Position numbers and translations under genes: made by a program. From Mugil cephalus (taxonomy: Eukaryota; Chordata; Actinopteri; Mugiliformes; Mugilidae), in NCBI RefSeq assembly GCF_022458985.1, contig NC_061772.1, forward strand, positions 11,832,001 through 11,896,000: 64,000 bases of DNA, read 5' to 3'. The stretch's first letter is position 1. Each line of letters opens with the position of its first letter. A model generated the notes under the pieces. It did no database searches and was not told where the DNA came from. It saw only the letters and a program-made list of their open reading frames with translations. Shown here piece by piece: positions 27,159-47,177 of this stretch.

Positions 27159-30100
27159 TCAATCTGCAACAGGACAGGAGTCAGAGAACAGATCTCTAGA
27201 CCAATCACATGTGTGGTTCTCTTCATCCAGGAGGAGATCTTTAGATCCATCAAGACTCCCCGCATCAACTGTCTCACTGTCACACTTTCCCACTTGGACC
27301 AGACTTTTGAACGATGACGAGGGAGTTCCATCCAAAAGCGTTCTTTTACAATAAACTCCATCTCCGTGCTGTCCTTCCCAGGCAAATCCCACATTACCCC
27401 TGCTGTCACCAGTACGCCTTCTTCGTCTCAGCGTCACACTCTCCGGAGGAGAGGGGGGAACAGCTACTTCACTGTGCTCAAAATCACACACAGTTACGTT
27501 ACAATCAGTTGAGTCACATTTGGTTTTGATCGTTCCTGTTGATCCCAGGTTTAGGACCGCTCTTTCTACGCTTTGCTGTTGCTGAGCCTGGAATCTATGA
27601 TTGTCTGGTTTCCAGAAGCTCCTTTTTGGGGTAAGCCTGTAGCTGCGTCTGCTGGATTTCGTGTTCCATGCCAAGTTTTCTTTTGTAGACTCTCTGCCAA
27701 CCTGACACAGCTGATTGGTGTGAACAATGTTCAATTGACAGTTAACAGATGTTGTTGCAGTTTGTTTTTTGCTGTCTACTTCATGCAGATTTCCAAAAAC
27801 AGGTGGCACAGCACCTACTTTTACAATGGGGGTGGACTGAGAGGGAGGGACAAAGTCAAAGTCTTGAGCCCCATGTAGTACTAGACTGTCTCTCTTGTAG
27901 CGCTCACCACTTTTCAGTTTCTGTGTGTCTGGTGTTGAGTAAGTGACAGTGGTGTTTTTAGTCCCAAGCTGCTTTTCATCTTGGGTGGAAAACGGTGTGC
28001 ATGCTTCTGTGGTGGTCCTCACAGGTTCTGCATGTGGGCTGAGCATCTCTGTGCTTGTAGAGTTGTAGAGTGACCTACTGAATAGGTCTGCTGAACAGTT
28101 GTAGGTGTCCCCTCCTGGGTGCTCTTCATCTTCCTTGTGAAAACACAGAGAACTAGATTTGTCACCCTCCTGATTACACTCACAGGAACATATCAGACTC
28201 CTGCTAAAACCTTCCACAGGACTTTTGCATACCTGATCAGATAAATCATGACTGTCGCTGCCAGTTGGTGCACGTGTATTGGTGATGTCCAGTAATATCT
28301 GTGATTGGCTGCCTGATACATGCGCTTTTCTTTGGCATACAGAAGTTGATTCAACTGTTACGTTTGTGGTTTCAAGGTTATTTTCTACAGTTTCTTTGTT
28401 TTCTTTGCATAAAAACTCTGTAAGACTCTCTGAGAATGGCAAATCATCCCAAGCCAATGAGCTTGACAAAAATGTTCTGCGGGAAAACTCATTCGCGGGA
28501 CTAACGCGAGTGTTCAGGTTGGGGCTATTTGCAGCACATTCAATGTGAGACAAGTCTGGGTATTTGGCAAATGATGGACTGCTATAAAAACTGTGATCTA
28601 AAGGGAGCAGTGGAGGTCTGTCTTCTGTGACTTTATGCTTCTCCAGTAAACGTCTGGGTCCCGGATGTGGTGTTGTGCTATTGGCTCTCTGTCTGCTGCT
28701 CTCATCTCCACTATCCTGGGTACTACAGCCTTCCTCCTGCTCCGCCGATGAAGTAATTACTCCTAGTGATTGTTCCCACACGGAAAAGGGAGTGCGGGTG
28801 CAGTCTCTGTGCAAAGATCTAAGATGGAAATAATAACAAGAAACGTTAAATTTCACAAAAGTAAACAGTTCCTCCAGAGATGCTACCACAGGAGGATTAC
28901 ACTTAAAGTTACTTGGTATTATAGTGACACAGTCATAAATTCTGTACTCTGCCGCTAAAATATAAGAAATGAAAAGCTTCAAAAAACTTGTTCTTTTAAC
29001 TTTGATTTTAGATTTCCTACGACAAACTCCTATTCATGTATTAAATATTTGTGGTTGCTATAATCCGCCCTGGAAATAAAAAACTAAGATATACCAGGCA
29101 GATCATTTCTTAATTTCATTACCTGTATGGTGACTGGGAGGGAAGATCAGAGGCAGACAGTGTGACATTAAAGCTGCTGGTTGGAGAATGATCAGGATTG
29201 ATCAGCAGGGTTGTATCTGGAGGTCTGGGAGTTTTGTTGTGATCAACACATCCCAGTTCAAATTCCGAAGCTTTCTGAAGAAGAATCCGATAATAGCTGA
29301 CCACCGTGCAGCCTTCCAGACCCGTAGTTTTGGGAAGAATCATCTGGCTGGCGACAAACTGGGCTGAGTCTTTACCGTTGGAGCCATTTGGAACAGGATC
29401 ACCAAACCATGGGCCACTTTGTGTTTTTGACTGAAAGACACAGATGATACCAGGGACAGTTTAGACTGAATCACCTAAAAACAGATAAAATCTAATTACA
29501 CACATTTTGGACCCATCATTCATTCTTTTTGTGCATAATTAAAATTCTGATACATAAGTAGATACATAGACTTTATTTATCCTGAGGGATGAACAAGGAT
29601 TTGATTTTGAAATTAGTTTATGAATCCAACACCCACAGATTTTAGTACTTCATATAATGAATATGAACTATCTTTTTCTTTTCAGGACAGCCTTTTGAAA
29701 AATGCCGCGATGAAGGCCTTGTGGATTATTTCATATTTATGTGAAACGGATGTCGTAATCAAGATCAGGAGCTGTGCATCGGGACCTCCTTATTTACGAC
29801 TGTTTGATACGCAGTACAAAAGTTGTCTATTCAATCAATATCCCGAATCAGATTGTACATTTACCTTCAAACCAAAGATGAAATGTCTGCCAATGAAACA
29901 GTCCTTGACAGCCTTCAACAACAATGTGAATCTAGTTGATGGAACGACTGGTCCATCCACATTTTCCACTAACCTAAAAAATTATAAACACAACAAAGAC
30001 AAAGACAAAGACATTTTTATATGTTCTATTAAACATGGGTAAAGTATAGCTTTGTGAAGGATTTCCCTCATCAAGTGTTTTAGGCCATTATGGATTAAAT

Positions 30101-31015
30101 TTAAGACCTACATGAAGTATTAAAAAAAATAAATAAATCAGAGACCCAGAATTACTTACAAAATAACAAAATTTATTGTCATTCAAATATCAACTCAGGA
30201 CATTCCTGGTGGGCTTCACGGCTGAGTAACAGAAACATAATAGGCCGGGGCCAGACTGCAAATGAAGCGGTAAATGGATATTTGAGACTTGAATAAAAGT
30301 AATTTAACACCTACAATGGAAAATATGTCCATGTTAAAGACTTTTTAAGGCCTTAAATTGGGATTATCAAGTGAGGTTTGTACAAAACTGGGAGCATGCC
30401 ACAGTATAAGACTGGTGGACTTTGTCTAAAGCAGTGTAAACATTGACAGAAAGATGCCTGAGAGGTCATTTCTTTACTCACTTCTGTAATCCACTTGCAT
30501 CGATGCCAAAGAATGGGTTCAGGCTATTTCCAAATACTGTCACACCAAATATGCACCTGTCCCGGGCCACCTTCAGAGACAGACGATATCTGTAATCCAG
30601 CTGTTCCTTCAGACAACTATAACCACACTTGGAGCATCTGCATCTGCGGTGACAGAGGGTTCGGGGTTAGGACATGTAGGAGAACTTTCTGCTTTTTTTT
30701 TCCAAAGAGGAGTCATTTTAGTTTCAGTTTGAAAGTCGTCCAGATACAGTCCTCCTACCAGCACTATCACTTCACAGATATTCCCTACGACCAGTAATGA
30801 CTCTCGGTGAACTCGGACACTTTTGCCCCATATGAGGTTTCAACAGTAACTTCTATGGACTCAGTGCTTTTAAATCAAGGTTGGTGTTTTTACCTCGTTG
30901 TGTCCTGCTGTTCAACCTCAATTCGTGAGAAACAGCCTTTACAGCAGGGATAAAAAATACACGTATCTTGCAGAGACAACACAGCACAGTCCACCAGAGC
31001 CCGTCTGACAGACAT
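27159..31015 (-). CDS. ddias: DNA damage-induced apoptosis suppressor (noxin), 786 aa
   Basis: DDIAS (noxin) is an anti-apoptotic, DNA-damage-response protein with an N-terminal OB-fold related to the RPA1 C-terminus. Exons on the minus strand: 31015-30894, 30643-30482, 29973-29865, 29430-29123, 28818-27159. They sum to 2361 nt, exactly 787 codons with the stop. The N-terminus has zinc-ribbon cysteines (FYPCCKGCF, then CRCSKCGY), followed by the OB-fold pieces YRYRLSLKVA, VTVFGNSLNPFFGI and FIGRHFIFGLK. The long last exon contains three motifs I recall from human DDIAS: WDDLPFSESLTEFL, DFVPPSQSTPI, and a closing WSRDLFSDS. The gene is transcribed away from the receptor cluster. A truncated copy of exons 1-3 occurs at 40.5-41.7 kb. 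Confidence 0.9.
29545..29600 (-). repeat. Possible L2-type LINE 3' tail in a ddias intron
   Basis: ACTTTATTTATCCTGAGGGA resembles the reverse complement of the fish L2 tail (TCCCTCAGGGATCAATAAAGT type). Only the tail is present. Confidence 0.3.
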
Positions 31016-31860
31016 TTATACGAGTAAAATCAATCTGAAGCGACTAACTGCAGCTAGAGGGCTAACAGAGGCTAGCGGAAACACGTCGAGAGCTATTTCA
31101 ACTTAACTTTATAGCAATAAACTAAAATATCAATTGCTACAACTATCAGAATATTAATATATATAAATATATTCAAATTTAACGTAGTCTATAAACATTT
31201 GTTTCTTTCCCATAATGCTGTTCCTTCTTCTTCTTCACGTTTTGTATGAAAACTCAGATGGTAGACGCGTCACTGCCACCTACTGGACGACGACCGAAAC
31301 AGCGAGTTGGCAAAATGTGTTCAGCCATTGTAACTTTTACTTGTTCTCATGCACAGTGTCAGTGAGTAGCACTTGGCTGTTATCCTCAGTCTCATTACAT
31401 TACAGCAGCTGCAGTCGTTTTAATCATTGATCACTGTGATATTTAAATTACATGCAGAACACATTTATAAAAACAAAAATAAAACATGGGGCTGATGAAA
31501 CCTTTTGTCCTTTCCTGATTTCCAAGTCCGCAACAATCTCTTTCCTTACACATGTCTAAGTTCTGCCTGTTTGTCATTTATTTACTCCTTTGACTTTTGG
31601 TACAAAGCTGATAAAAACTGTTGGATTACAGCTGTAATAAATAGTTTTACTGATGGCTAATGAGAAAACTGTTTAGCCAACACTGAACTTTACAATCTCG
31701 ACTGTATGAAGAATTTTGTAAACCAAATTCAGTGAAAAGAAAGGGATTTTAGTTACTGTGAACATGAAATAGGGCTGCTCTATCATGAATGTGCATTTAT
31801 TCCTTCTCCATTTTCAATCCACTGCCATACATGTTCATGTACAATTATTCATCCTCCTGT

Positions 31861-32015
31861 AGTTTCTATTTTATCCAAAGGCCACTTCCACTGAAACAGT
31901 GGATCAACATTTCCAGCAACAGCTTTCCATATCATGAAGACAGAGAGGCATAAGCAGCGAGTCTGCGCTCATGTTCCTACATTATGCGCTGTTTTTGAAG
32001 GAATAACTGAGGCTT
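31861..32015 (+). repeat. Orphan fourth copy of the il4r-like leader/promoter region
   Basis: This segment matches the leaders of the three receptor copies (shared GACAGAGAGGCATAAGCAGC, then GAGTCTGCGCTCA). No receptor coding exon follows it before copy A. A TTCCACTGAA (TTC-N4-GAA) site is present at 31886-31895. It diverges after the GCGCT motif and lacks the shared AAACAG|GTAA donor, so it is probably a dead leftover of an earlier duplication. Confidence 0.7.
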
Positions 32016-33558: not shown

Positions 33559-36500
33559 ATGACTTTTCTCCTGCTTTTTTTGGGCCATGTTGTGACTGCA
33601 ATAGCTCTAACTGGTGCGTACTATTAACACGGAAAGAGTCGCTAAATAATCTTTGTGTGCCTGAGGTCGGTAATTATTTGTGTTTGACACAGGAGTCCAC
33701 AGTGAAACAGCCCTAAACCTTGACTGTACCAACGACTTTGAGAAGATGTTTTGCCAGGTAGAGGCTCAGAACTGTACTGAATACAACTTGACCATCGAGA
33801 GTGATCTCGGCGATGGGTACGTTTTCAATAAAAAGGAGCTGCATCCACATGAGAATGACTAGTAGATATTTAATATATCCCCAACATGTTGTAAGATTAA
33901 TGTCTCTTGTACTCCACAGTACTGAGAGCTGCAGTTTACAGCAGTGTGACAGTGGACGCTGTTGTTGCACTGTCACAATGAAGCTCATCCTGGGGGAGAC
34001 TCATACAGCAACAGTCTGGAGAGCTGGAAAAAGCTTAGAGTCGAAAAAAATCAGTGTCACAGACACCGGTATGTTGACTTCACTTTAATGAAAGTCCACA
34101 GATGTGCAGCAGCCAGAAACAGACTGATCAGAGGTTAGGAAGCACTCGCTTTACTTTTCTTGTTTCTGTTTCTGTACAGTAAAGCCCAAAACTCCAACTA
34201 TCATCTCAGTCAATGAATCCAAGGGAAATTTTGAAGTTAAGTGGATTTCAAACATGGAGGCTTCTTTCCCTCTGACTGCTGAAGTGACTTTCTATAAAAA
34301 AGGAGACACAAAAAAGGTAGGAACAATGTCACAGACACGCTATAACAGTTCACTATGACATGATCATGTCTACATCTCCAAGATAAATGAGCTATGATGA
34401 GCAAACTCTCCTTTTCATCACTCTTTTTTGCCATGCAGGTGACTGAATCTATTACACGGGCTATTGTTGAGGGACTGAATTACTACGAAATAAATGGTGA
34501 ACGCCTGGAATCAAGCACAACGTATATGGTCAGCGTGAGAACCCACACAAATATAAGTGGAAAGTTCAGCGACAGCAGCAACGAGTGTGAATTTACAACC
34601 TGTAAGTCGCTTTGTAATGTCACTTTGTAATGTCACTTTGTAATGCATTAAATTCTACTTTTCTAATCACATTAAGAATTCTCAAAGTATACTCCATAAG
34701 TTCCAACGTAAAAGTCCTGGTAAGATCCATACATATCTAATGTAAAATAAAAAAAATTAATTTTTAACATTTTTACAAAAAAGACAATGCAGTACGCAAC
34801 GTTAACAGTAATACAAGGTGTCATTGTTATGTGTAATCCAAGCTTTTTTGCGAACCTTAAATTCCTAAATTTATACATTTGCGTCTGTACTGTGCGCATT
34901 TTCAGCAAGCACTGTGATTTATTTTCTGTACATGTTATTTCACAGCTTCCTCTCTTGTTATCGTGCCCCTGGCTATAATCATCAGCCTCAGTATGACTGC
35001 CGTCATCCTCGGCGGTGTCCTATATGTCTGTTATATAAAGTAAGTCTTTCTGCTGTGCCTCTGTCAGTGCATTATATGATTTGCAGCATTTGAATCGATC
35101 GTGTTCCTGTATCGTGCACGTTCCTTTGTTGTTTATTTATACATTTGCTTTCAGGTACAAAAGAAAGTGGTGGGACACAGTTGTCAAAGATCTAAATCCA
35201 AAACTTCTTAACATGCATCCCAGCAAGACTGAGGTAAGACACTTCATAAGACAATTCATAAATTTGAACATTTTCATCTATCTTTATGATGTTACAAAAC
35301 CCAAAAGCCACTCAAGAGAAAACACCGCTTCTGAACTTAATGCAACACCTTGCATGCAGTCAAGCATTTTGTTGTGTAACCACATTTGCATAGTGTCCAG
35401 TTAGTTAGAGTTCCTCTGTTGTTTTCTGACAAAGTAGTTACCAAATCGGAGTTTGCCACAGCACAACACCACATGCTAATGTGGTAATCATAAAAAACAT
35501 TGTGATTACCACAAAAAACAGGCAAAAAAAGCATTTTGTTGTGTCACCACATTTGCATAGTGTCCTGTTAGTCTGGTAAGAAATGGGCTCTAATCCACAG
35601 AGTAAACCACAGGACCAGTCAGACAAAACCGGGCTTTTTAGGAGCTAGTATTTAAATAGACAGGAGCTAAAACGTAGCGTTCCAAACAGAGAATGAAACA
35701 AGATGCCCCAACAGTGTCAGAGTGTGGAAATTTTTGAACATTAGTACATTTGAACCTATTCTGGACCGGGCCCCACCCTGGAGCCAGGCCTGGGGTTGGG
35801 GCTCGTGGGCGAGCGCCTGATGGTCAGGCCTTTGTTACAGGACTTACATGGTTACATGGACTCGCCTCCCTGTGGGCCCACCACCTGCAGTAGGTCCAGG
35901 AAGGGTCCAGTGCAGTGTGGATTTGGCGGCAGACCACGGCGAGGGTCTTGGCGGTCTGATCCTCGGTTATGGAAACTGACTTTGTGGACATGGAACGTCA
36001 CCTCTCTGGCGGGGAAGGAACTGGAGCTTGTGGAAGAGGTGGAGTGTTATCGACTAGATATAGTTAGCCTCACCTCAACACATAGCATCGACTCCGGAAC
36101 CCAAGTCTTGACCAAAGACTCTCTGCCTGTATGTTGGAGAAAGGGTTGCTGCCCTGCGCCTTCGGGTCAGGGAACGGGTTCTGACTGTTGTTTGCGAACA
36201 CGCGCCGAACAGCAGTCTCCTTTTTGGAGACCTTAGGTGGGGCGCTGGATAGTGTCCTGACTGGAGACTCCATTGTCCTTCTGGGGGACGCCCATGTGGG
36301 CAATGACAGCGTAACCTGGAGAGGCGTGATTGAGAGGAACGGCCTGTCTGATCTGAACCCCAGCAGTGTTCAGTTATTGGACTTCTGTGCAAGTTGCAGT
36401 TTGTCCATAACTAACACCATGTTCGAACGTAAGGTTGTTCATCGGTACTCTTGGCACCATGACGGCCTAGGTCATAGGTCGATGATCAACTTTGTAGTCG

Positions 36501-37730
36501 TATCATCCGACCTGCGACCGTATGTTCTGGACACTCGAGTGAAGAGAGGAGCAGAGCTGTCAACTAATCACCACCTGGTGGTGAGTTGGATCAGACCGCT
36601 GACCTCACGACCCGGACCCGGATAAGTGGAAGAAAGCGAAACGAAATGAAACTTTGGCTGCTCTCAGTAACATGACAGCATCAATTTAAAATGCCTTTCT
36701 TTTAAATTAAGTTTGATGGTTTGGGACCTTCTTGTTTCAGCTTTTGAAGCCTTCGCCGGTGGTATTCTCCCCTCTCACTGTCAGCATTAGAGATGATACC
36801 CATTCTCTAGATGACTCCAAAAAAGGGTTAGTATGGCTGCGTAGATACATCAGCGTACAACATATCTCCTTAATGATTTATACGTCATTTTTTGGCAATT
36901 TAAGTAAAGATTTGTCTCTTCTCAGGTCGAAGCTATGTGACACTAGCAGCTGGAGCCTGCAGCAAAGCAGTGGAATCAGCACGGGATCCTCAGCTCTCCG
37001 TCATGCTAACCCAGAACCTGCCCAGTTTACCATCGCTGACGCCGTTAGAGACGCCCTTCATGAAGCCCTGCCCACCATCGGTCAAATGACACCCCTAACC
37101 ACAGATCCCTCAATAGACCTAAACAGCGACTATAGTGTCAAAGTGAAAGATATACGTTCCGGACCATCTTGTTTTGTAAATAGAACCTATTCCCCCCTCA
37201 TGCCAGGAGAATCCACAAACCCTCCCAGCGAGAGTAACACTGTTACAGTGACCTGTCCAGATAGTCTGTCCCCAGTGCAACAACTTATCATTTCAGCATC
37301 TCTGGATATGGTGGTAGACGATTCATATCAGCAGTGCAACGCTGAATCTGGGAGGTTTTCATATACTGAAGACCCCAGCTTGTCCTCCATCTCTAGTGAC
37401 ACCAGCACAGCCCCCTGTTGTGATCTTATGTCCAGAGTTGAGGCAGAGTGTGAAGACAGTGGTGGATCCAACCTAAATGCCAAAAGTGAAGAGGACAATC
37501 TATGTGACAAAAATTCCTGCCATGGCTCTTTGGTGGTGGATAAAGACTATCAGTCATTGCAGAGTCTAGTGCAGCAGCCTGATGTTTCATTTCCAGAATG
37601 GAAAAGTGGAGAGCAAAAGGAACGCTTGGACAAGTATTGGGAGGAACCACCCGCCAAGATCAATCAAAGTGTCTTCGTGTCTACTCAATCTGCCCCACTC
37701 ATTGTGATCAGTGACTATCAGAGCGTGTAG
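33559..37730 (+). CDS. il4r: Class I cytokine receptor, IL-4 receptor alpha-like, copy A, 563 aa
   Basis: IL-4R alpha binds IL-4 (and IL-13 in the type II complex) and signals through JAK1 and STAT6. Exons: 33559-33613, 33693-33816, 33920-34068, 34180-34316, 34439-34601, 34946-35039, 35155-35233, 36741-36826, 36926-37730. They total 1692 nt. A signal peptide ([16 protein letters not shown]) precedes two fibronectin-type domains. Domain 1 has the IL-4R-like cysteine pattern with [10 protein letters not shown] and CCCTV. The hinge reads VKPKTP. A degenerate WSxWS reads [10 protein letters not shown]. The membrane span is in exon 6, at about residues 211-238. A box 1-like [17 protein letters not shown] follows. 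The tail carries tyrosine motifs, among them DYQSLQSLV (like STAT6 docking sites GYKPFQDLI) and C-terminal DYQSV. The receptor class is clear. IL-4R alpha is the best fit by ectodomain pattern, with IL-2R-family alternatives possible. Confidence 0.75.
35780..36650 (+). mobile_element. LINE fragment (AP endonuclease domain) in intron 7 of il4r copy A
   Basis: Broken frames read like the endonuclease part of a fish non-LTR retrotransposon: [79 protein letters not shown]. No reverse transcriptase follows, and stops and frameshifts are present. Copy C lacks this insertion at the same place, so it arrived after the duplication or was lost there. I cannot assign the clade. Confidence 0.75.
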
Positions 37731-38025: not shown

Positions 38026-38754
38026 ATTTTTATTTTGCATAGTGGATTGGAACTGCATTCCCTAAATGTGTAATCTGAGGTGGTAGTGTATGAAACCTCA
38101 CTTAGACATACATATCAGAGTTAGGGTTAGAGTTTTAAGTACAACAGAAAAACATCAAAACCTTTTAAAGAAAAACACCTTACAAAAGAGTGTGGACTAT
38201 TTGTATTATTTACTGTAATGTTGTGTAAAGCCAGCCACATACAGTACATCATGACACAGTATTTGAGGAACTTTGTTTCAGTGATTTTCATCGTTCTTAG
38301 AAGAAGGCTACTGGGTTTATTGCTCTTCTGAAGAAAACATTTGTTTTGTTTGAACATTTTTAATGAGAATGAGCATAATTCCTGAGATGATCCAATAAAG
38401 GGTGTTAGTACAGCACATATCAAATAATTTCCCTGCCAGTCTTTGAACTTTCCAATTAATAGTCTATTCAAACTGCACAGTGGGTCAGCAGAAAATGTAT
38501 CTATCCCACTCGGGAATCTTAATCCACTTCATATTGGGAAGAAGAAGAAAACAACATTTGATGGTCTTTTTTTTTTGTTTGCATCAAACTTAAGTTAAAT
38601 AATGTGACATGAAATAGGACTGACGGCTGAAATGAATGTGCATTTAAATAGTAAATCCGTCTCCACTTTCAAGCCATTACCATACACGTTCATCTACACT
38701 TATTGCTCCTCCCATATTTTCTATTTTATCCACTCACTCAAGTTGCGTATTCAC
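38026..38754. other. Spacer between copies A and B
   Basis: No gene is present. The part from about 38,041 to 38,140 recurs after copy C at 47,490-47,590. The part from about 38,180 to 38,740 recurs before copy A at 32,730-33,210. The spacer is thus a mosaic of duplicated flanks. Confidence 0.6.
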
Positions 38755-38962
38755 AGTTTTCCGCAGACATCTGCCGTCAGCTGGCACACAGAAAAGGGAG
38801 TGGAGTTCACTTCCACTGAAACACTGGCGCAACATTTCCAGCAACAGGTTGCCATAAGGCATAAGAGAGGCATAAGCAGCGAGTCTGCGCTCACATCTCC
38901 AGAGCGTACGTTGTTTTTGAACGAATAAGTGGAATAAATCCCCTCGTTGTGGAGTGAAACAG
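38755..38962 (+). promoter_or_regulatory. Leader region and 5' UTR exon of the secreted receptor copy B
   Basis: This is homologous to the leaders of copies A and C and keeps the donor AAACAG|GTAATC at 38,962. TTCCACTGAA at 38811-38820 is a TTC-N4-GAA site of the type STAT6 prefers. Since the leader and donor are intact, copy B looks expressible. Confidence 0.6.
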
Positions 38963-39097
38963 GTAATCTAAACTAGTGATAATGTTTTGTTGTTGTTTTT
39001 TTACCTGTGTTTTTAGATTTGCTGCATTAAAAAAATAAATAAATAAATAAATAAAACACCTCATCCTGGTTTTACTTTCAGGCGAGTTCTAGACAGG

Positions 39098-40145
39098 ATG
39101 ACTTTTCTCCTGCTTTTTTTGGGCCATGTTGTGACTGCAATAGCTCTAACTGGTGCGTACTATTAACACGGAAAGAGTCGCTAAATAATCTTTGTGTGTC
39201 TGAGGTTGGTAATTATTTGTGTTTGACACAGGAGTCCACAGTGAAACAGCCCTAAACCTTGACTGTACCAACGACTCTGACGAGAAGATGTTTTGCCAGG
39301 TAGAGGCTCAGAACTGTACTGAATACAACTTGACCATCGAGAGTGATCTCGGCTATGGGTACGTTTTCAATAAAAAGGAGCTGCATCCACATGAGAATGA
39401 CTAGTAGATAGTGAATATATTCCCAACATGTTGTAAGATTAATGTCTCTTGTACTCCACAGTAATGAGAGCTGCAGTTTACAGCAGTGTGACAGTGGACG
39501 CTGTTGTTGCACTGTCACAATGACGCTCATCCTGGGGGAGACTCATACAGCAACAGTCTGGAGAGCTGGAAAAAGCTTAGAGTCGAAAAAAATCAGCGTC
39601 ACAGACACCAGTATGTTGACTTCACTTTAATGAAAGTCCACAGATGTGCAGCAGCCAGAAACAGACTGATCAGAGGTTAGGAAGCACTCGCTTTACTTTT
39701 CTTGTTTCTGTTTCTGTACAGTAAAGCCCAAAACTCCAACTATCATCTCAGTCAATGAATCCAACGGAAATTTTGAAGTTAAGTGGATTTCAAACATGGA
39801 GGCTTCTTTCCCTCTGACTGCTGAAGTGACTTTCTATAAAAAAGGAGACACAAAAAAGGTAGGAACAATGTCACAGACACGCTATAACAGTTCACTATGA
39901 CATGACCATGTCTACATCTCCAGGATAAATGAGCTATGATGAGCAAACTCTCCTTTTCATCACTCTTTTTTGCCATGCAGGTGACTGAATCTATTACACC
40001 GGCTATTGTTGAGGGACTGAATTACTACGAAATAAATGGTGAACGCCTGGAATCAAGCACAACGTATATGGTCAGCGTGAGAACCCACGCAATTATAAAT
40101 GGAAAGTTCAGCGACAGCAGCAACGAGTGGGAATTTACAACCTAA
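39098..40145 (+). CDS. IL-4R alpha-like ectodomain-only protein, copy B (predicted secreted), 210 aa
   Basis: Exons 39098-39152, 39232-39358, 39462-39610, 39722-39858 and 39981-40145 give 633 nt including TAA. The signal peptide, both fibronectin-type domains and the WSxWS-like FSDSSNEWEF are intact. Compared with copy A, an 82-base deletion (A 34602-34683) removed the donor after the last ectodomain exon. The exon's final T now meets AA to make an immediate stop. A second, larger deletion of about 3 kb removed the membrane, box 1 and tail exons and joined intron 5 to the 3' UTR. All remaining splice sites and the reading frame are preserved. It could act as a soluble ligand-binding decoy or carrier, as soluble IL-4R does in mammals. 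That role is inference. It could also be a decaying pseudogene. Confidence 0.7.
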
Positions 40146-40500
40146 AGTATACTCCATAAGTTCCAATGTAAAAGTCCTGGTAAGATCCATACATATCTAA
40201 TGTAAAATAAAAAATAAAACATTTTTATAAAGAAGACAATTTGCAGATGCGGTACGCAACATTGACAAGTAATACAAGGTGTCATTGTTATGTATAATCC
40301 AAGCTTTTTTGCGAACCTAAATCCCTATATTCATACATGTAAAATATCAATAAAATACTCCTGGTTTGAGACATAATGTTTTAGATGTGTACTTTGTATA
40401 AATGCTGGGGCAAAGGGCTGCAGTAGGCTCATGTAAATGTAAATGTATCTGGGTACCTTAATGTGATAATAAGGTCTATTTGCTTTTCACTTTTGTCCAC
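40146..40500 (+). other. Novel 3' UTR of copy B made from intron 5 plus the ancestral 3' UTR
   Basis: 40146 to about 40,335 aligns with intron 5 of copy A. From ATGTAAAATATCAATAAAAT onward it aligns with the shared 3' UTR. AATAAA at 40349-40354 replaces the AGTAAA found in copies A and C, so a usable polyadenylation signal is present. The block ends at about 40,500 where the ddias fragment begins. Confidence 0.65.
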
Positions 40501-40552
40501 AGTACAAAAGTTGTTTATTCAATCAATATCCTGAATCAGATTGTACATTTAC

Positions 40553-41734
40553 CTTCAAACCAAAGATGAAATGTCTGCCAATGAAACAGTCCTTGACAGC
40601 CTTCAACAACAATGTGAATCTTGTTGATGGAACGACTGGTCCATCCAAATTTTCCACCAACGTAAAAAATTATAAATACAACAAAGACAAAGACATTTTT
40701 ATATGTTCTATTAAGCACAGGTAAAGTAGAGCTTTGTGAAGGATTTCCCTCATCAAGTGTTTTAGACCATTATGGATTAAATTTAAGACCTACATGAAGT
40801 ATTAAAAAAAAAAAAAAGAATAACTTACAAAATAACAAAATTTATTGTCATTGAAATATCAATCCAATATCATTATGAAATACACATTTCTGAACAAAAA
40901 CATTAACATTCATATAAAAAGAGGAAATTATACTACACTCTATTATGTTATGTTATTTAACACCATGTAATAAGTGATGTGCACACAGACCTCCCATTTA
41001 ACGATTTCATATGGGAGCCATAATATACGGTTCCTACACCATAAACAACATATGGCCGAGCTTCATTTTAACCTAGTAGAAAAAGCTGACGTTTGTACAA
41101 AACTGGGAGCATGCCACAGTATAAGACTGGTGGACTTTGTCTAAAGCAGTGTAAACATTAACAGAAAGATGCCTGAAAGGTCATTTCTTTACTCACTTCT
41201 GTAATCCACTTGCATCGATGCCAAAGAATGGGTTCAGGCTATTTCCAAATACTGTCACACCAAATATGCACCTGTCCCGGGCCACCTTCAGAGACAGACG
41301 ATATCTGTAATCCAGCTGTTCCTTCAGACAACTATAACCACACTTGGAGCATCTGCATCTGCATCTGCGGTGACGGAGGGTTCGGGGTTAGGACATGTAG
41401 GAGAACTTTCTGCTTTTTTTCCAAAGAGGAGTCATTTTAGTTTCAGTTTGAAAGTCGTCCAGATACAGTCCTCCTACCAGCACTATCACTTCACAGATAT
41501 TCCCTACGACCAGTAATGACTCTCGGTGAACTCGGACACTTTTGCCCCATATGAGGTTTCAACAGTGACTTCTATGGACTCAGTGCTTTTAAATCAAGGT
41601 TGGTGTTTTTACCTCGTTGTGTCCTGCTGTTCAACATCAATTCGTGAGAAACAGCCTTTACAGCAGGGATAAAAAATACACGTATCTTGCAGAGACAACA
41701 CAGCACAGTCCACCAGAGCCCGTCTGACAGACAT
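40553..41734 (-). pseudogene. Truncated ddias copy, exons 1-3 only
   Basis: Exon 1 (41734-41613), exon 2 (41364-41197) and exon 3 (about 40661-40553) of ddias are repeated with few changes. The acceptor before exon 3 has changed from AG to AC (ATTTTTTAC|GTTGG), exon 2 carries an extra CATCTG unit (6 bases, in frame), and exons 4-5 are missing. Similarity stops at about 40,500, where copy B's 3' UTR ends. This copy travelled with the receptor duplication and cannot make full DDIAS. Confidence 0.85.
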
Positions 41735-43199
41735 TTATACGAGTAAAATCAATCTGAAGCAACTAACTGCAGCTAGAGGGCTAATAGAGGCTAGCGGAAA
41801 CACGTCGAGAGCTATTTCAACTTAACTTTATCGCAATAAATTAAAATATCAATTGCTACAACTATCAGAATATTAATATAAATAAATATATTCCAATTCA
41901 ACGCAGTCTATAAACATTTGTTTCTTTCCCATAATGCTGTTCCTTCTTCTTCTTCATGTTTTGATTGAAAACTCACATGGTAGATGCGTCACTGCCACCT
42001 ACTGGACGACGACCGAAACAGCATTTTGGCAAAATCTGTTCAGCCATTGTAACTTTTACTTGTTCTCATGCACAGAGTCAGTGAGTAGCACTTGGCTGTT
42101 ATCCTCAGTCTCATTACATTACAGCAGCTGCAGTCGTTTTAATCATTGATCACTGTGATATTTAAATTACATGCAGAACACATTTATAAAAACAAAAATA
42201 AAACATGGGGCTGATGAAACCTTTTGTCCATTCCTGATTTCCAAGTCCGCAACAATCTCTTTCCTTACACATGTCTAAGTTCTGCCTGTTTGTCATTTTG
42301 TTGATTTATATACTCCTTTGAGTTTTGGTACAAAGCTGTCACTATTATTTTTCTGTGGAGCTTCTGGGCTTGTCGTTGGAACAAATAATATGCATGATTT
42401 GGTATAGCAGCAATTTAGTGCTGTTGTAGGACACAGCTAATATAAGGATGACAGCAATATGTACTTACATTGGAAAAAAACAATAAACATCATTTTTGGG
42501 ATGTGAAGTGTTCATGACAAATATATTATATTTTATTGGGACACAACACTTATTGCAATATAAGCTCATAGCAGTATTGCATACAGTACATGGTTGAATC
42601 ATTATCATTAACCTGAGAAAGTAGTATGTAGTATGTACACAACCGACCACGTCAGCTCAACCACTCTTGCAACATAAATATCTTTTCCTGTGAAATGAAC
42701 CTCTTCTGCAATTGGAAACTTCTGCATTTTAACGAGAAGCACACACATTTATAGAGATGTTCGTTATGTTGATTTATAATTTCTTCTCATGAACTGCAAA
42801 AGCTAAGAAAAGTAGCAAGGTGGGGCCTCTCATGTGTAACTTTGCTGTCCCTCGGCTTCCACCTGGTGGTCACATATGAATACGGTCACAGTGACTTAAT
42901 ATACTTGGTCAAGTTGTTGTTCACAGAATATGAGACATCTATATGTATAATTATAATTGCCATGTATGCCGTCTTACATGCATTTGTCTTTTTTCACATC
43001 TCATGTCCTCTCTTCAACACAACAGAAGAATCTTGTTGTCTGTCTGATTCATCCTGGCTGCCTCTGCAGAGATCTGCAGACATCCAGCCTTCACTGTGTC
43101 AGAGACACTTAATGATCATGTAGCTGCGTATCATCAACATTCCACCTTCTCAATGATAAGCCTTCCTCTGTGTGGAAAGCCCTATTGGTCCCTAAAACA
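41735..43199. other. Duplicated ddias-il4r spacer upstream of copy C
   Basis: This corresponds to 31,016-32,640, with local differences. The TTTC microsatellite and the orphan leader of the first spacer are absent. An extra stretch (about 42,340-42,600 and 42,780-42,890) has no counterpart. No gene was found. Confidence 0.6.
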
Positions 43200-43409
43200 G
43201 TTTTCCGCAGACATCTGCCGTCAGCTGGCGCACGGAAATGGGAGTGGAGATCACTTCCAGTGAAACAGTGGCGCAACATTTCCAGCAACAGCTTTCCATA
43301 TCAGGAAGACAGAGAGGCATAAGCAGCGAGTCTGCGCTCACGTCTCCACAGCGTACGCTGTTTTCGAACGAGTAAGTGGAATAAATCGCCTCGTCGTGGA
43401 GTAAAACAG
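43200..43409 (+). promoter_or_regulatory. Leader region and 5' UTR exon of il4r copy C
   Basis: This matches the leaders of A and B and ends AAACAG|GTAATC at 43,409. TTCCAGTGAA at 43255-43264 is an intact TTC-N4-GAA (STAT6-type) site. The 5' boundary of homology is abrupt at about 43,197, after a stretch resembling 32,600-32,690. Confidence 0.6.
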
Positions 43410-43543: not shown

Positions 43544-46500
43544 ATGACTTTTCTCCTGCTTTTTTTGGGCCATGTTGTGACTGCAATAGCTCTAACTGGT
43601 GCGTACTATTAACACGGAAAGAGTCGCTAAATAATCTTTGTGTGCCTGAGGTCGGTAATTATTTGTGTTTGACACAGGAGTCCACAGTGAAACAGCCCTA
43701 AACCTTGACTGTACCAACGACTCTGAGGAGAAGATGTTTTGCCAGGTAGAGGCTCAGAACTGTACTGAATACAACTTGACCATCGAGAGTGATCTCGGCT
43801 ATGGGTACGTTTTCAATAAAAAGGAGCTGCATCCACATGAGAATGACTAGTAGATAGTGAATATATTCCCAACATGTTGTAAGATTAATGTCTCTTGTAC
43901 TCCACAGTACTGAGAGCTGCAGTTTACAGCAGTGTGACAGTGGACGCTGTTGTTGCACTGTCACAATGACGCTCATCCTGGGGGAGACTCATACAGCAAC
44001 AGTCTGGAGAGCTGGAAAAAGCTTAGAGTCGAAAAAAATCAGCGTCACAGACACCAGTATGTTGACTTCACTTTAATGAAAGTCCACAGATGTGCAGCAG
44101 CCAGAAACAGACTGATCAGAGGTTAGGAAGCACTCGCTTTACTTTTCTTGTTTCTGTTTCTGTACAGTAAAGCCCAAAACTCCAACTATCATCTCAGTCA
44201 ATGAATCCAAGGGAAATTTTGAAGTTAAGTGGATTTCAAACATGGAGGCTTCTTTCTCTCTGACTGCTGAAGTGACTTTCTATAAAAAAGGAGACACAAA
44301 AAAGGTAGGAACAATGTCACAGACACGCTATAACAGTTCACTATGACATGACCATGTCTACATCTCCAGGATAAATGAGCTATGACGAGCAAACTCTCCT
44401 TTTCATCACTCTTTTTTGCCATGCAGGTGACTGAATCTATTACACCGGCTATTGTTGAGGGACTGAATTACTACGAAATAAATGGTGAACGCCTGGAATC
44501 AAGCACAACGTATATGGTCAGCGTGAGAAGCCACACAAATATAAGTGGAAAGTTCAGCGACAGCAGCAAAGAGTGGGAATTTACAACCTGTAAGTCGCTT
44601 TGTAATGACAGTTTGTAATGTCACTTTGTAATGCAGTAAATTCTACTTTTCTAATCACATTAAGAATTCTCAAAGTATACTCCATAAGTTCCAATGTAAA
44701 AGTCCTGGTAAGATCCATACATATCTAATGTAAAATAAAAAAAAAATAATTTTTAACATTTTTACAAAGAAGACAATGCAGTACGCAACGTTAACAGTAA
44801 TACAAGGTGTCATTGTTATGTGTAATCCAAGTTTGTTTGCGAACCTTAAATTTCTAAATTTATACATTTGTGTCTGTACTTTGCGCATTTTCAGCAAGCA
44901 CTGTGATTTATTTTCTGTACATGTTATTTCACAGCTTCCTCTCTTGTTATCGTGCCCCTGGCTATAATCATCAGCCTCAGTATGACTGCCGTCATCCTCG
45001 GCGGTGTCCTATATGTCTGTTATATAAAGTAAGTCTTTCTGCTGTGCCTCTGTCAGTGCATTATATGATTTGCAGCATTTGAATCGATTGTGTTCCTGTA
45101 TCGTACACGTCCCTTTGTTGTTTATTTATACATTTGCTTTCAGGTACAAAAGAAAGTGGTGGGACACAGTTGTCAAAGATCTAAATCCAAAACTTCTTAA
45201 CATGCATCCCAGCAAGACTGAGGTAAGACACTACATAAGACAATTCATAAATTTGAACATTTTCATCTATCTTTATGATGTTACAAAACCCAAAAGCCAC
45301 TCAAGAGAAAACACCGCTTCTGAACTTAATGCAACACCTTGCATGCAGTCAAGCATTTTGTTGTGTAACCACATTTGCATAGTGTCCAGTTAGTTAGAGT
45401 TCCTCTGTTGTTTTCTGACAAAGTAGTTACCAAACCGGAGTTTGCCACAGCACAACACCACATGCTAATGTGGTAATCACAGGAATATAAAGATTATTAT
45501 TTTAGTTACATGACAGCGTCAATTTAAAATACCTTTCTCTTAATTTCAAGTGTGATGGTTTGGGGCCTTCTTTTTTTCCCCCAACAAGTGTGTTCATAAA
45601 TTTCAGAATAAATAATCACACCACAGCAAATACAAATATTACGGATGCGAAACAGAACTGTCACTCTAAGGCTTATTTTCAATGAACAAGACAGAGCAGT
45701 AGCATGCGTTATTTTGCACAGTCCAAAACATAAATGATCCTTCAGATTCACTGGTGGTCCAGAAGTTAACTTAGTTGTCCCTTAGAGAAAGGCAAATAAA
45801 ACAAAGTAAAAACAAGTGGTTTACATACACAGGGAACATGCCTCCAATGCTTTCTTCCTTTCTAAGAGCACCATAAAAGATCTCCACATATTGTCAAAGA
45901 TGAAATATTTACCCTTTAACATGAAGGTGAGTTTTTCTAGTGCAAAAAGTCTGACAGCCCCGCAAGCCAAACACTAATACTTAGTTGGTATACTTGGTAG
46001 TGGATTTCCAAGATTTGGCTATGGTATATTTGGCTTGTAGCATGCAAAAAGTGATCGTAGATTTGTTTGCCTTGCTAAGGTTACGGTTTACTGGAAAAAC
46101 GCCAAAGATACACAGTTTGGGATCTATTGAAAGTTTTATGCCCGTAACATGTAAAATCATATCTAGCTTTGGGCCCTTTTGTTTCAGCTTTTGAAGCCTT
46201 CGCCACTGGTCATCTCCCCTCTCATCGTCAGCATTAGAGATGATACCCATTCTCTAGATGACTCCAAAAAAGGGTTAGTATGGCTGCGTAGATACATCAG
46301 TGTACAACATATCTCCTTAATGATTTATACGTCATTTTTTGGCAATTTAAGTAATGGTTTCTCTCTTCTCAGGTCGAAGCTATGTGACACTAGTGACTGG
46401 AGCCTGCAACAAAGCAGTGGAATTAGCACGGGATCCTCAGCTCTCAGTTATGCTAACACAGAACCTGCCCAGTTTACCATCGCTGACGCCGTTAGAGACG

Positions 46501-47177
46501 CCCTTCATGAAGCCCTGCCCACCATCGGTCAAATGACACCCCTAACCACAGATCCCTTGATGGACCTAAACAGTGACTATAGTGTCAAAGTGAAAGATAT
46601 AAGTTCGGGATCATCTGGTTTTGTAAATAGAACCTATTCCCCCCTCATGCCAGGAGAATCCACAAAACCTCCCAGCGAGAGTAACACTGTTACAGTGACC
46701 TGTCCAGATGGTCTGTCCCCAGTGCAACAACTTATCATTTCAGCATCTCTGGATATGGTGGTAGACGATTCATATCAGCAGTGCAACGCTGAATCTGGGA
46801 GGTTTTCATATACTGAAGACTCCAGCTCGTCCTCCATCTCTAGTGACACCAGCACAGCCCCCTGTTGTGATCTTATGTCCAGAGTTGAGGCAGAGTGTGA
46901 GAACAGTGGTGGATCCAACCTAAATGCCAAAAGTGAAGAGGACAATCTATGTGACAAAAATTCCTGCCATGGCTCTTTGGTGGTGGATAACGACTATCAG
47001 TCATTCCAGAGTCTAGTGCGGCAGCCTGATGTTTCATTTCCAGAATGGAAAAGTGGAGAGCAAAAGGAACACTTGGACAAGTATCAGGAGGAACCACCCG
47101 CCAAGATCAATCAAAGTGTCTTCGTGTCTACTCAATCTGGCCCACTCATTGTGATCAGTGACTATCAGAGCGTGTAG
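43544..47177 (+). CDS. il4r: Class I cytokine receptor, IL-4 receptor alpha-like, copy C, 564 aa
   Basis: Exons: 43544-43598, 43678-43804, 43908-44056, 44168-44304, 44427-44589, 44935-45028, 45144-45222, 46188-46273, 46373-47177. They total 1695 nt, one codon longer than copy A (an extra Glu in the second exon, NDSEEKMF against NDFEKMF). Domains are as in copy A: signal peptide, two fibronectin-type domains, membrane span, box 1-like [12 protein letters not shown], and a long tail with the tyrosine motifs [25 protein letters not shown] and C-terminal DYQSV. The WSxWS-like motif keeps Trp (FSDSSKEWEF), where copy A has Cys. The nucleotide match to A extends through introns and both flanks, which argues for a recent tandem duplication or gene conversion. 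Intron 7 carries about 600 bases not found in A instead of A's LINE. Confidence 0.75.
45575..46170. other. Copy C-specific insertion in intron 7
   Basis: Relative to copy A, about 600 extra bases lie between CTTCTTTTTTTCCCCC and the acceptor of exon 8. No coding match and no clear terminal repeats were seen. It may be an unclassified mobile sequence, or DNA lost from A. Confidence 0.4.

Follow-up and report, generated by a model that had tools for sequence, protein, structure and literature searches.

One of three tandem copies of a cytokine receptor gene in Mugil cephalus has been truncated so that it encodes the ectodomain only, and this much is confirmed by alignment with its two full-length sisters. 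Whether the copy (B) is an intact interleukin-4 receptor alpha (IL-4R alpha)-like paralogue whose sole product would be a secreted ectodomain, acting as a decoy for IL-4/13 if expressed, is a question to which we would give a chance of yes just short of even. The copies lie in a window of 64,000 nucleotides (C3:11832001-11896000), the whole stretch of DNA analyzed here, and the genome searched comprises 634.8 Mb in 24 contigs.

The tandem array and the anatomy of copy B

Self-comparison of the window revealed the receptor gene as three tandem copies, A, B and C, with a neighboring stretch repeated twice beside them. A Pfam family scan placed other domains in the window, namely lipin LNS2, BTB with zinc fingers, and IRF, which mark its gene content as animal. 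Exon models for the receptors were derived from an alignment of the three copies; all three models are open, with GT-AG at every coding intron, and specify 563 (A), 210 (B) and 564 (C) amino acids. The features are as follows, in window coordinates.

31754..32009, plus strand: 5' relict of a further receptor copy (pre-gene region and exon 1), between U1 and A, in pieces 76-87% identical
33559..37730, plus strand: copy A, full receptor, 563 aa, nine coding exons (exon model)
38753..38962, plus strand: 5' block of B including non-coding exon 1, 5' end not fixed; donor CAG/GTAATC kept at 38963 (A/C alignment)
39082..39152, plus strand: B exon 2, with the end of the 5' UTR, ATG at 39098 and the signal peptide (alignment, exon model)
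39232..39358, plus strand: B exon 3 (exon model)
39462..39610, plus strand: B exon 4 (exon model)
39722..39858, plus strand: B exon 5 (exon model)
39981..40145, plus strand: B exon 6, coding part, TAA at 40143-40145 (exon model)
40143..40144, plus strand: junction of the 82-base deletion, donor lost (A/C alignment)
40144..40338, plus strand: former intron, predicted 3' UTR of B, AATAAA at 40206 and 40213 (alignment)
40332..40338, plus strand: junction of the large deletion, intron to 3' UTR (A/C alignment)
40339..40489, plus strand: 3' UTR common to the copies, AATAAA at 40349 (alignment)
40491..42338, minus strand: U2, second copy of the 5' part of the neighboring minus-strand gene (first copy, 29803-31610)
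43544..47177, plus strand: copy C, full receptor, 564 aa, nine coding exons (exon model)

The coding sequence of B (39098-40145) comprises five exons and 210 residues, a signal peptide and a two-domain ectodomain followed by TAA. By Kyte-Doolittle hydropathy there is no hydrophobic stretch in B after the signal peptide, whereas A and C have one from about residue 205-207. Judged by frame and hydropathy, B therefore has the anatomy of a soluble receptor, with a signal peptide, ligand-binding domains and no anchor, and a search of its remaining frame in the exon model found no disabling mutations. Signal peptide, ectodomain and splice sites are all kept, as the sequence-only reading had proposed, in a five-exon open frame with GT-AG at each coding intron. 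Bases private to B occupy 19 of the 195 gap-free columns of the exon-1 block. The same block carries a TTCN4GAA palindrome, a STAT6-type motif, at 38811-38820 in B and 43255-43264 in C, and lacks it at the matching place in A; the motif could mean IL-4-driven feedback, although a single match per ~500 bases is nothing rare.

The 82-base deletion is exact, with A 34602-34683 and C 44590-44671 missing between B 40143 and 40144. Its first base is the start of the donor GTAAGT (A 34602, C 44590), and the exon of B is left ending in ...ACC TAA, so that the immediate stop earlier placed at the end of the last ectodomain exon is indeed there, at 40143-40145. No junction homology was seen at this deletion in the A/B/C alignment. 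The large deletion, located in diverged sequence, fuses the intron to the 3' UTR (A 34878 to A 37868 on; C 44867 to C 47315 on) and took the acceptor, membrane and tail exons from B. Its size had been put at about 3 kb, which is right against A (2990 bases) but not against C (2447 bases), intron 8 being longer in A. The short homology noted earlier at the intron/3' UTR join was found as well, as an imperfect ATACAT/ATTCAT at B 40332-40338.

Readthrough into the undeleted intron adds CKSLCNVTL (A) or CKSLCNDSL (C) and then a stop. With an in-frame stop following the first nine codons of the intron, either deletion alone could yield a soluble product, and the large one could already have been sufficient because it removed the acceptor. 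The first 67 bases beyond the 82-base deletion are identical in B and C, and this deletion is thus probably younger than the exchange of core sequence described below; we infer that order, exchange and then the 82-base deletion, from the alignment. In the full-length copies the intron after the last ectodomain exon (A 34602-34945, C 44590-44934) has AATAAA at 34746 and 44734, and together with the in-frame stop this predicts that A and C could also make a soluble isoform, by intron retention.

At the 3' end of B, the good AATAAA that had been read from the sequence is present at 40349, where A and C have AGTAAA, and is joined by two more at 40206 and 40213. A cryptic donor-like site (CTG/GTAAGA) is present at 40180, and an acceptor-like site at 40502 has pyrimidines at 14 of 16 positions. 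A splice from 40180, if used, would start 34 bases past the stop and so leave the B protein unchanged. By the usual rule, decay (NMD) needs ~50 bases between stop and splice, and at 34 bases the cryptic splice would not trigger it.

Downstream of A lies sequence resembling the downstream flank of C, followed by a copy of the pre-gene block, and the array probably went through at least two duplications and several losses. U2, on the strand opposite B and abutting the B 3' UTR, was duplicated along with the receptor; the minus-strand gene repeated at 29803-31610 and 40491-42338 is one that we take to be DDIAS-like. Intron 8 of A contains extra sequence (35750-36640) that is unmatched in C in the self-comparison and looks retroelement-like by eye, but the frame 36185-36622 inside it gave no Pfam match.

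A whole-genome DNA search with the core of B returned three matches, namely A, B and C, and all 23 matches of a protein search with C fell within the array, with the best 20 candidates scored, a depth at which a distant second gene could be missed. Beyond this genome, a query made from the three-protein alignment gave 46 pattern matches in genome_contigs and 12 in viral_contigs, none of them confirmed, as would be expected for an animal gene.

Identity of the receptor

The assignment of the gene family to IL-4R alpha, made at first from the sequence, is highly probable rather than certain, since the juxtamembrane test is specific and the ectodomain and whole-tail tests are not. The juxtamembrane KYKRKWWD of A and C, set against KIKKEWWD of human IL-4R alpha, gave a z of ~7, with 0 of 1000 shuffles reaching the score (provisional human tail sequences). 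The provisional tails of IL-21R (453 and 927 of 1000 shuffles) and IL-7R alpha (806 and 898 of 1000) scored as chance. This IL-4R-like segment is found in A and C only and is absent from B. For the whole tail, again with provisional human sequences, the shuffles per 1000 reaching the scores of A and C were 58 and 42 for IL-4R alpha, 58 and 298 for IL-21R, and 105 and 199 for IL-7R alpha. The ectodomains of B and C, compared with human ones under three settings, gave z values of 4.0-6.5 for IL-4R alpha, 6.4-8.1 for IL-21R and 6.4-7.1 for IL-7R alpha, scores that place only the receptor group and, if they favor any member, favor IL-21R and IL-7R alpha. IL-2R beta was rejected as the identity (ectodomain z of -0.3 to 2.4 for B and C over the three settings).

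No Pfam family passed the cut-off for A, B or C; IL4Ra_N had no match at E <= 1 in any of the three, and its five sub-threshold matches genome-wide were all on other contigs. Searches of the PDB gave only non-significant matches to IL-7R alpha (E 0.87 to 1.3), and one hit of the receptor tail, at E 0.003, to a chain that bears the name 'putative serine protease' was taken as chance. The class I cytokine receptor motif is C-X(9-10)-C followed by X-W (PMC1963337); the first domain here has C-x9-C, as in human, and then Q-V, so that C-X-W is lacking. Weak scores against human receptors are to be expected, given that zebrafish IL-4R alpha is itself listed at 13.3% against its human counterpart (PMC1963337). 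In place of a WSXWS box, A, B and C have FSDSS, as placed by eye.

STAT6 docking tyrosines take the form Y-x-x-F, and the tail motif is Y505-QSF in C and Y504-QSL in A. Copy A also has a W-to-C change at residue 205, near the degenerate WS box, which makes a ninth ectodomain cysteine. With these two changes, A may be changing function too.

Sequence exchange and selection

Divergence was counted over 1535 gap-free alignment columns, 1081 of them in the core (39060-40143) and 454 outside. B and C differ at 11 core columns (1.0%) and 46 outside (10.1%), A and B at 20 and 57, and A and C at 17 and 31. The longest identical run between B and C, 300 columns, was reached in 1 of 2000 shuffles (A-B, 44; A-C, 93). 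Within the core, the differences between B and C number 8 in 628 exon columns and 3 in 415 intron columns, also gap-free; the introns are as alike as the exons, and so the similarity does not come from purifying selection on the coding sequence. It would seem that recent gene conversion or some similar exchange overwrote exons 2-6 of B together with their introns.

Outside the core, the exon-1 block of B is 10.3% from C and 15.9% from A (gap-free columns), and the pre-gene block, which C lacks, differs between B and A at 91 of 464 positions. The distal former intron differs at 12 of 119 positions for B-C, 11 of 119 for B-A and 5 of 128 for A-C, and the 3' UTR at 12 of 149 for B-C. A and C are 3.6% apart in exon 10, 2.6% apart over the 3' UTR, and 2.2% apart over most of the neighboring repeat. 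The flanks of B are thus more diverged than A is from C, so that B looks older than the A-C split, with its core overwritten later. Divergence between A and C also varies along the gene, from 21.6% in intron 1 through 7.0% in both the exon-1 block and exon 9 down to 0-0.8% in exons 7 and 8 and at the beginning of intron 8, which suggests that exchange was not limited to the ectodomain; in the 5' part, some of the divergence is shared by every pair.

Sixteen ectodomain codons vary among the three copies, 15 of them non-synonymously and one synonymously. The B-C comparison has nine non-synonymous changes and no synonymous one, and the changes seen in B only are five to none (T62N, K125N, T193A, N194I and S196N). 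The neutral probability of so few synonymous changes is 0.060 for all three copies, 0.072 for B-C and 0.23 for B-only, and 16 variable codons are too few to reject neutrality in either direction. The ectodomains hint at an excess of amino-acid change, which would agree with the fast evolution described for bird IL4RA (PMC7274943). There is no sign of constraint on the B ectodomain, where the B-only changes are compatible with neutrality, and the substitution check by which the sequence-only reading proposed to judge B thus turned up nothing, at five to none, that speaks for purifying selection. In the tails, A and C show 27 changes in non-synonymous codons and 8 in synonymous ones.

Codons 191-206 hold 6 of the 15 non-synonymous changes (binomial 0.0005), a stretch that was picked after viewing the data, and the cluster was dropped as evidence for that reason. 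In B, one sequon is gained at N62 and another lost at N194. Placed by eye on a weak alignment, residues 193-196 of B follow the VR strand and precede the degenerate WS box, a stretch in which human IL-4R alpha has Tyr183, which contacts Glu9 of IL-4 (PMC1479839). The three B-only changes at 193-196 are probably at the position of the ligand-facing loop of the human receptor and could spoil binding.

Soluble receptor or passive duplicate

In the soluble-receptor reading, the sequence itself displays the tandem duplication, the large deletion of 2.4-3.0 kb that removed the acceptor, membrane and tail exons, the 82-base deletion that removed the donor and yielded the immediate TAA, and a core (exons 2-6) far nearer to A and C than the flanks; gene conversion would have overwritten that core. 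Transcription would begin at exon 1, as in A and C, and the RNA would end via the AATAAA near 40349 or those at 40206-40213, presumably escaping decay because its stop is in the last exon. The protein would then be secreted, bind IL-4/13 cytokines and serve as a decoy or buffer in competition with receptors A and C. In favor of this reading are the intact frame and splice borders, the lack of an anchor, the poly(A) signals, the harmless cryptic splice, the juxtamembrane match, and an exon-1 donor that has been kept in a block 10-16% diverged. Against it stand the five-to-none changes, the equal divergence of exons and introns, the unspecific ectodomain, and a probability of 0.82 that five random substitutions leave the B frame without a stop. 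On function, the odds are thus near even between a soluble receptor that works and a duplicate that conversion has kept intact.

The second of these, in which B is a non-functional truncated duplicate whose frame is intact only through recent conversion of exons 2-6 from A or C, is a serious contender, if one we hold at somewhat under even. Since the core was recently refreshed, the intact frame is no evidence of selection; there would have been too little time for damage, and B might be idly transcribed or serve as a passive conversion partner. A core that, with its introns, is 1.0% from C beside flanks at 10.1% fits such a duplicate, as do the B-only substitutions, the high chance of an unbroken frame, and the presence in the array of another truncated piece (31754-32009). 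It fits less well with the persistence of all the needed signals, among them exon 1 and a donor that sits within diverged sequence, and with a poly(A) signal in B that is better than its counterpart in A and C. The earlier description of B as a dedicated secreted gene holds for its anatomy beside two full receptors; in the functional sense it is no more than a proposal, the intact core being explained by A/C exchange and the changes standing at five to none.

Returning to the soluble receptor, it is conceivable, if rather unlikely, that conversion of the ligand-binding exons keeps a stand-alone decoy gene in step with receptors A and C, its own regulatory region and 3' end meanwhile diverging independently, in which case receptor and decoy would track the same fast-changing cytokine. 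That the secreted ectodomain works as a carrier or agonist that prolongs the cytokine or presents it, in place of competing for it, is very improbable: the anatomy would be the same, and a soluble IL-6R reported in one fish may allow trans-signaling (PMC4929537), but a soluble form of fish IL-4R blocks IL-4 effects (PMC4929537). More improbable still is an assembly error or rare haplotype, for although near-identical repeats are hard to assemble and one assembly underlies B, its private bases and junctions are not derivable from A or C, which makes an A/C mix-up unlikely.

In zebrafish, a secreted IL-4R alpha is produced by alternative splicing (PMC7274943), a form left out of the sequence-only contrast with mammals, in which splicing and shedding were named as the sources of soluble receptor. 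Like the zebrafish protein, B would present a fish ectodomain in secreted form (predicted in the case of B); unlike the splice isoform, a separate copy such as B can make the soluble form only. Soluble recombinant zebrafish IL-4R is described as ablating in vivo effects of IL-4 (PMC4929537). Zebrafish il-23r is a class I receptor gene for which a lack of the transmembrane domain is reported as predicted (PMC1963337), although it is a different receptor from B, and the passage on it gives no truncated copy beside full-length sisters. IL-13R alpha 2, which belongs to the same cytokine pathway, is regarded as a decoy (PMC4905449, PMC7274943). It is a different chain from B, with a tail that lacks signaling motifs, and is not a copy of IL-4R alpha. 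No stand-alone soluble IL-4R alpha paralogue was found in the literature covered, which consisted of titles and abstract openings, with most subscription journals outside that coverage.

Soluble decoy receptors with functionally proven genes include IL-22BP (IL22RA2), osteoprotegerin and DcR3. Like B, each has its own gene, a signal peptide and ligand-binding domains, and lacks an anchor. They differ in that their function is proven, whereas B is a truncation known from sequence alone. A soluble receptor with its own gene is thus a known kind, and it is the instance of B and its mode of formation that look new. If B is expressed, it would offer a natural experiment on the birth of a decoy receptor, with two deletions fixing the outcome of a splice isoform, and exchange confined to the ligand-binding exons would suggest a simple way to keep a decoy matched to its receptor.
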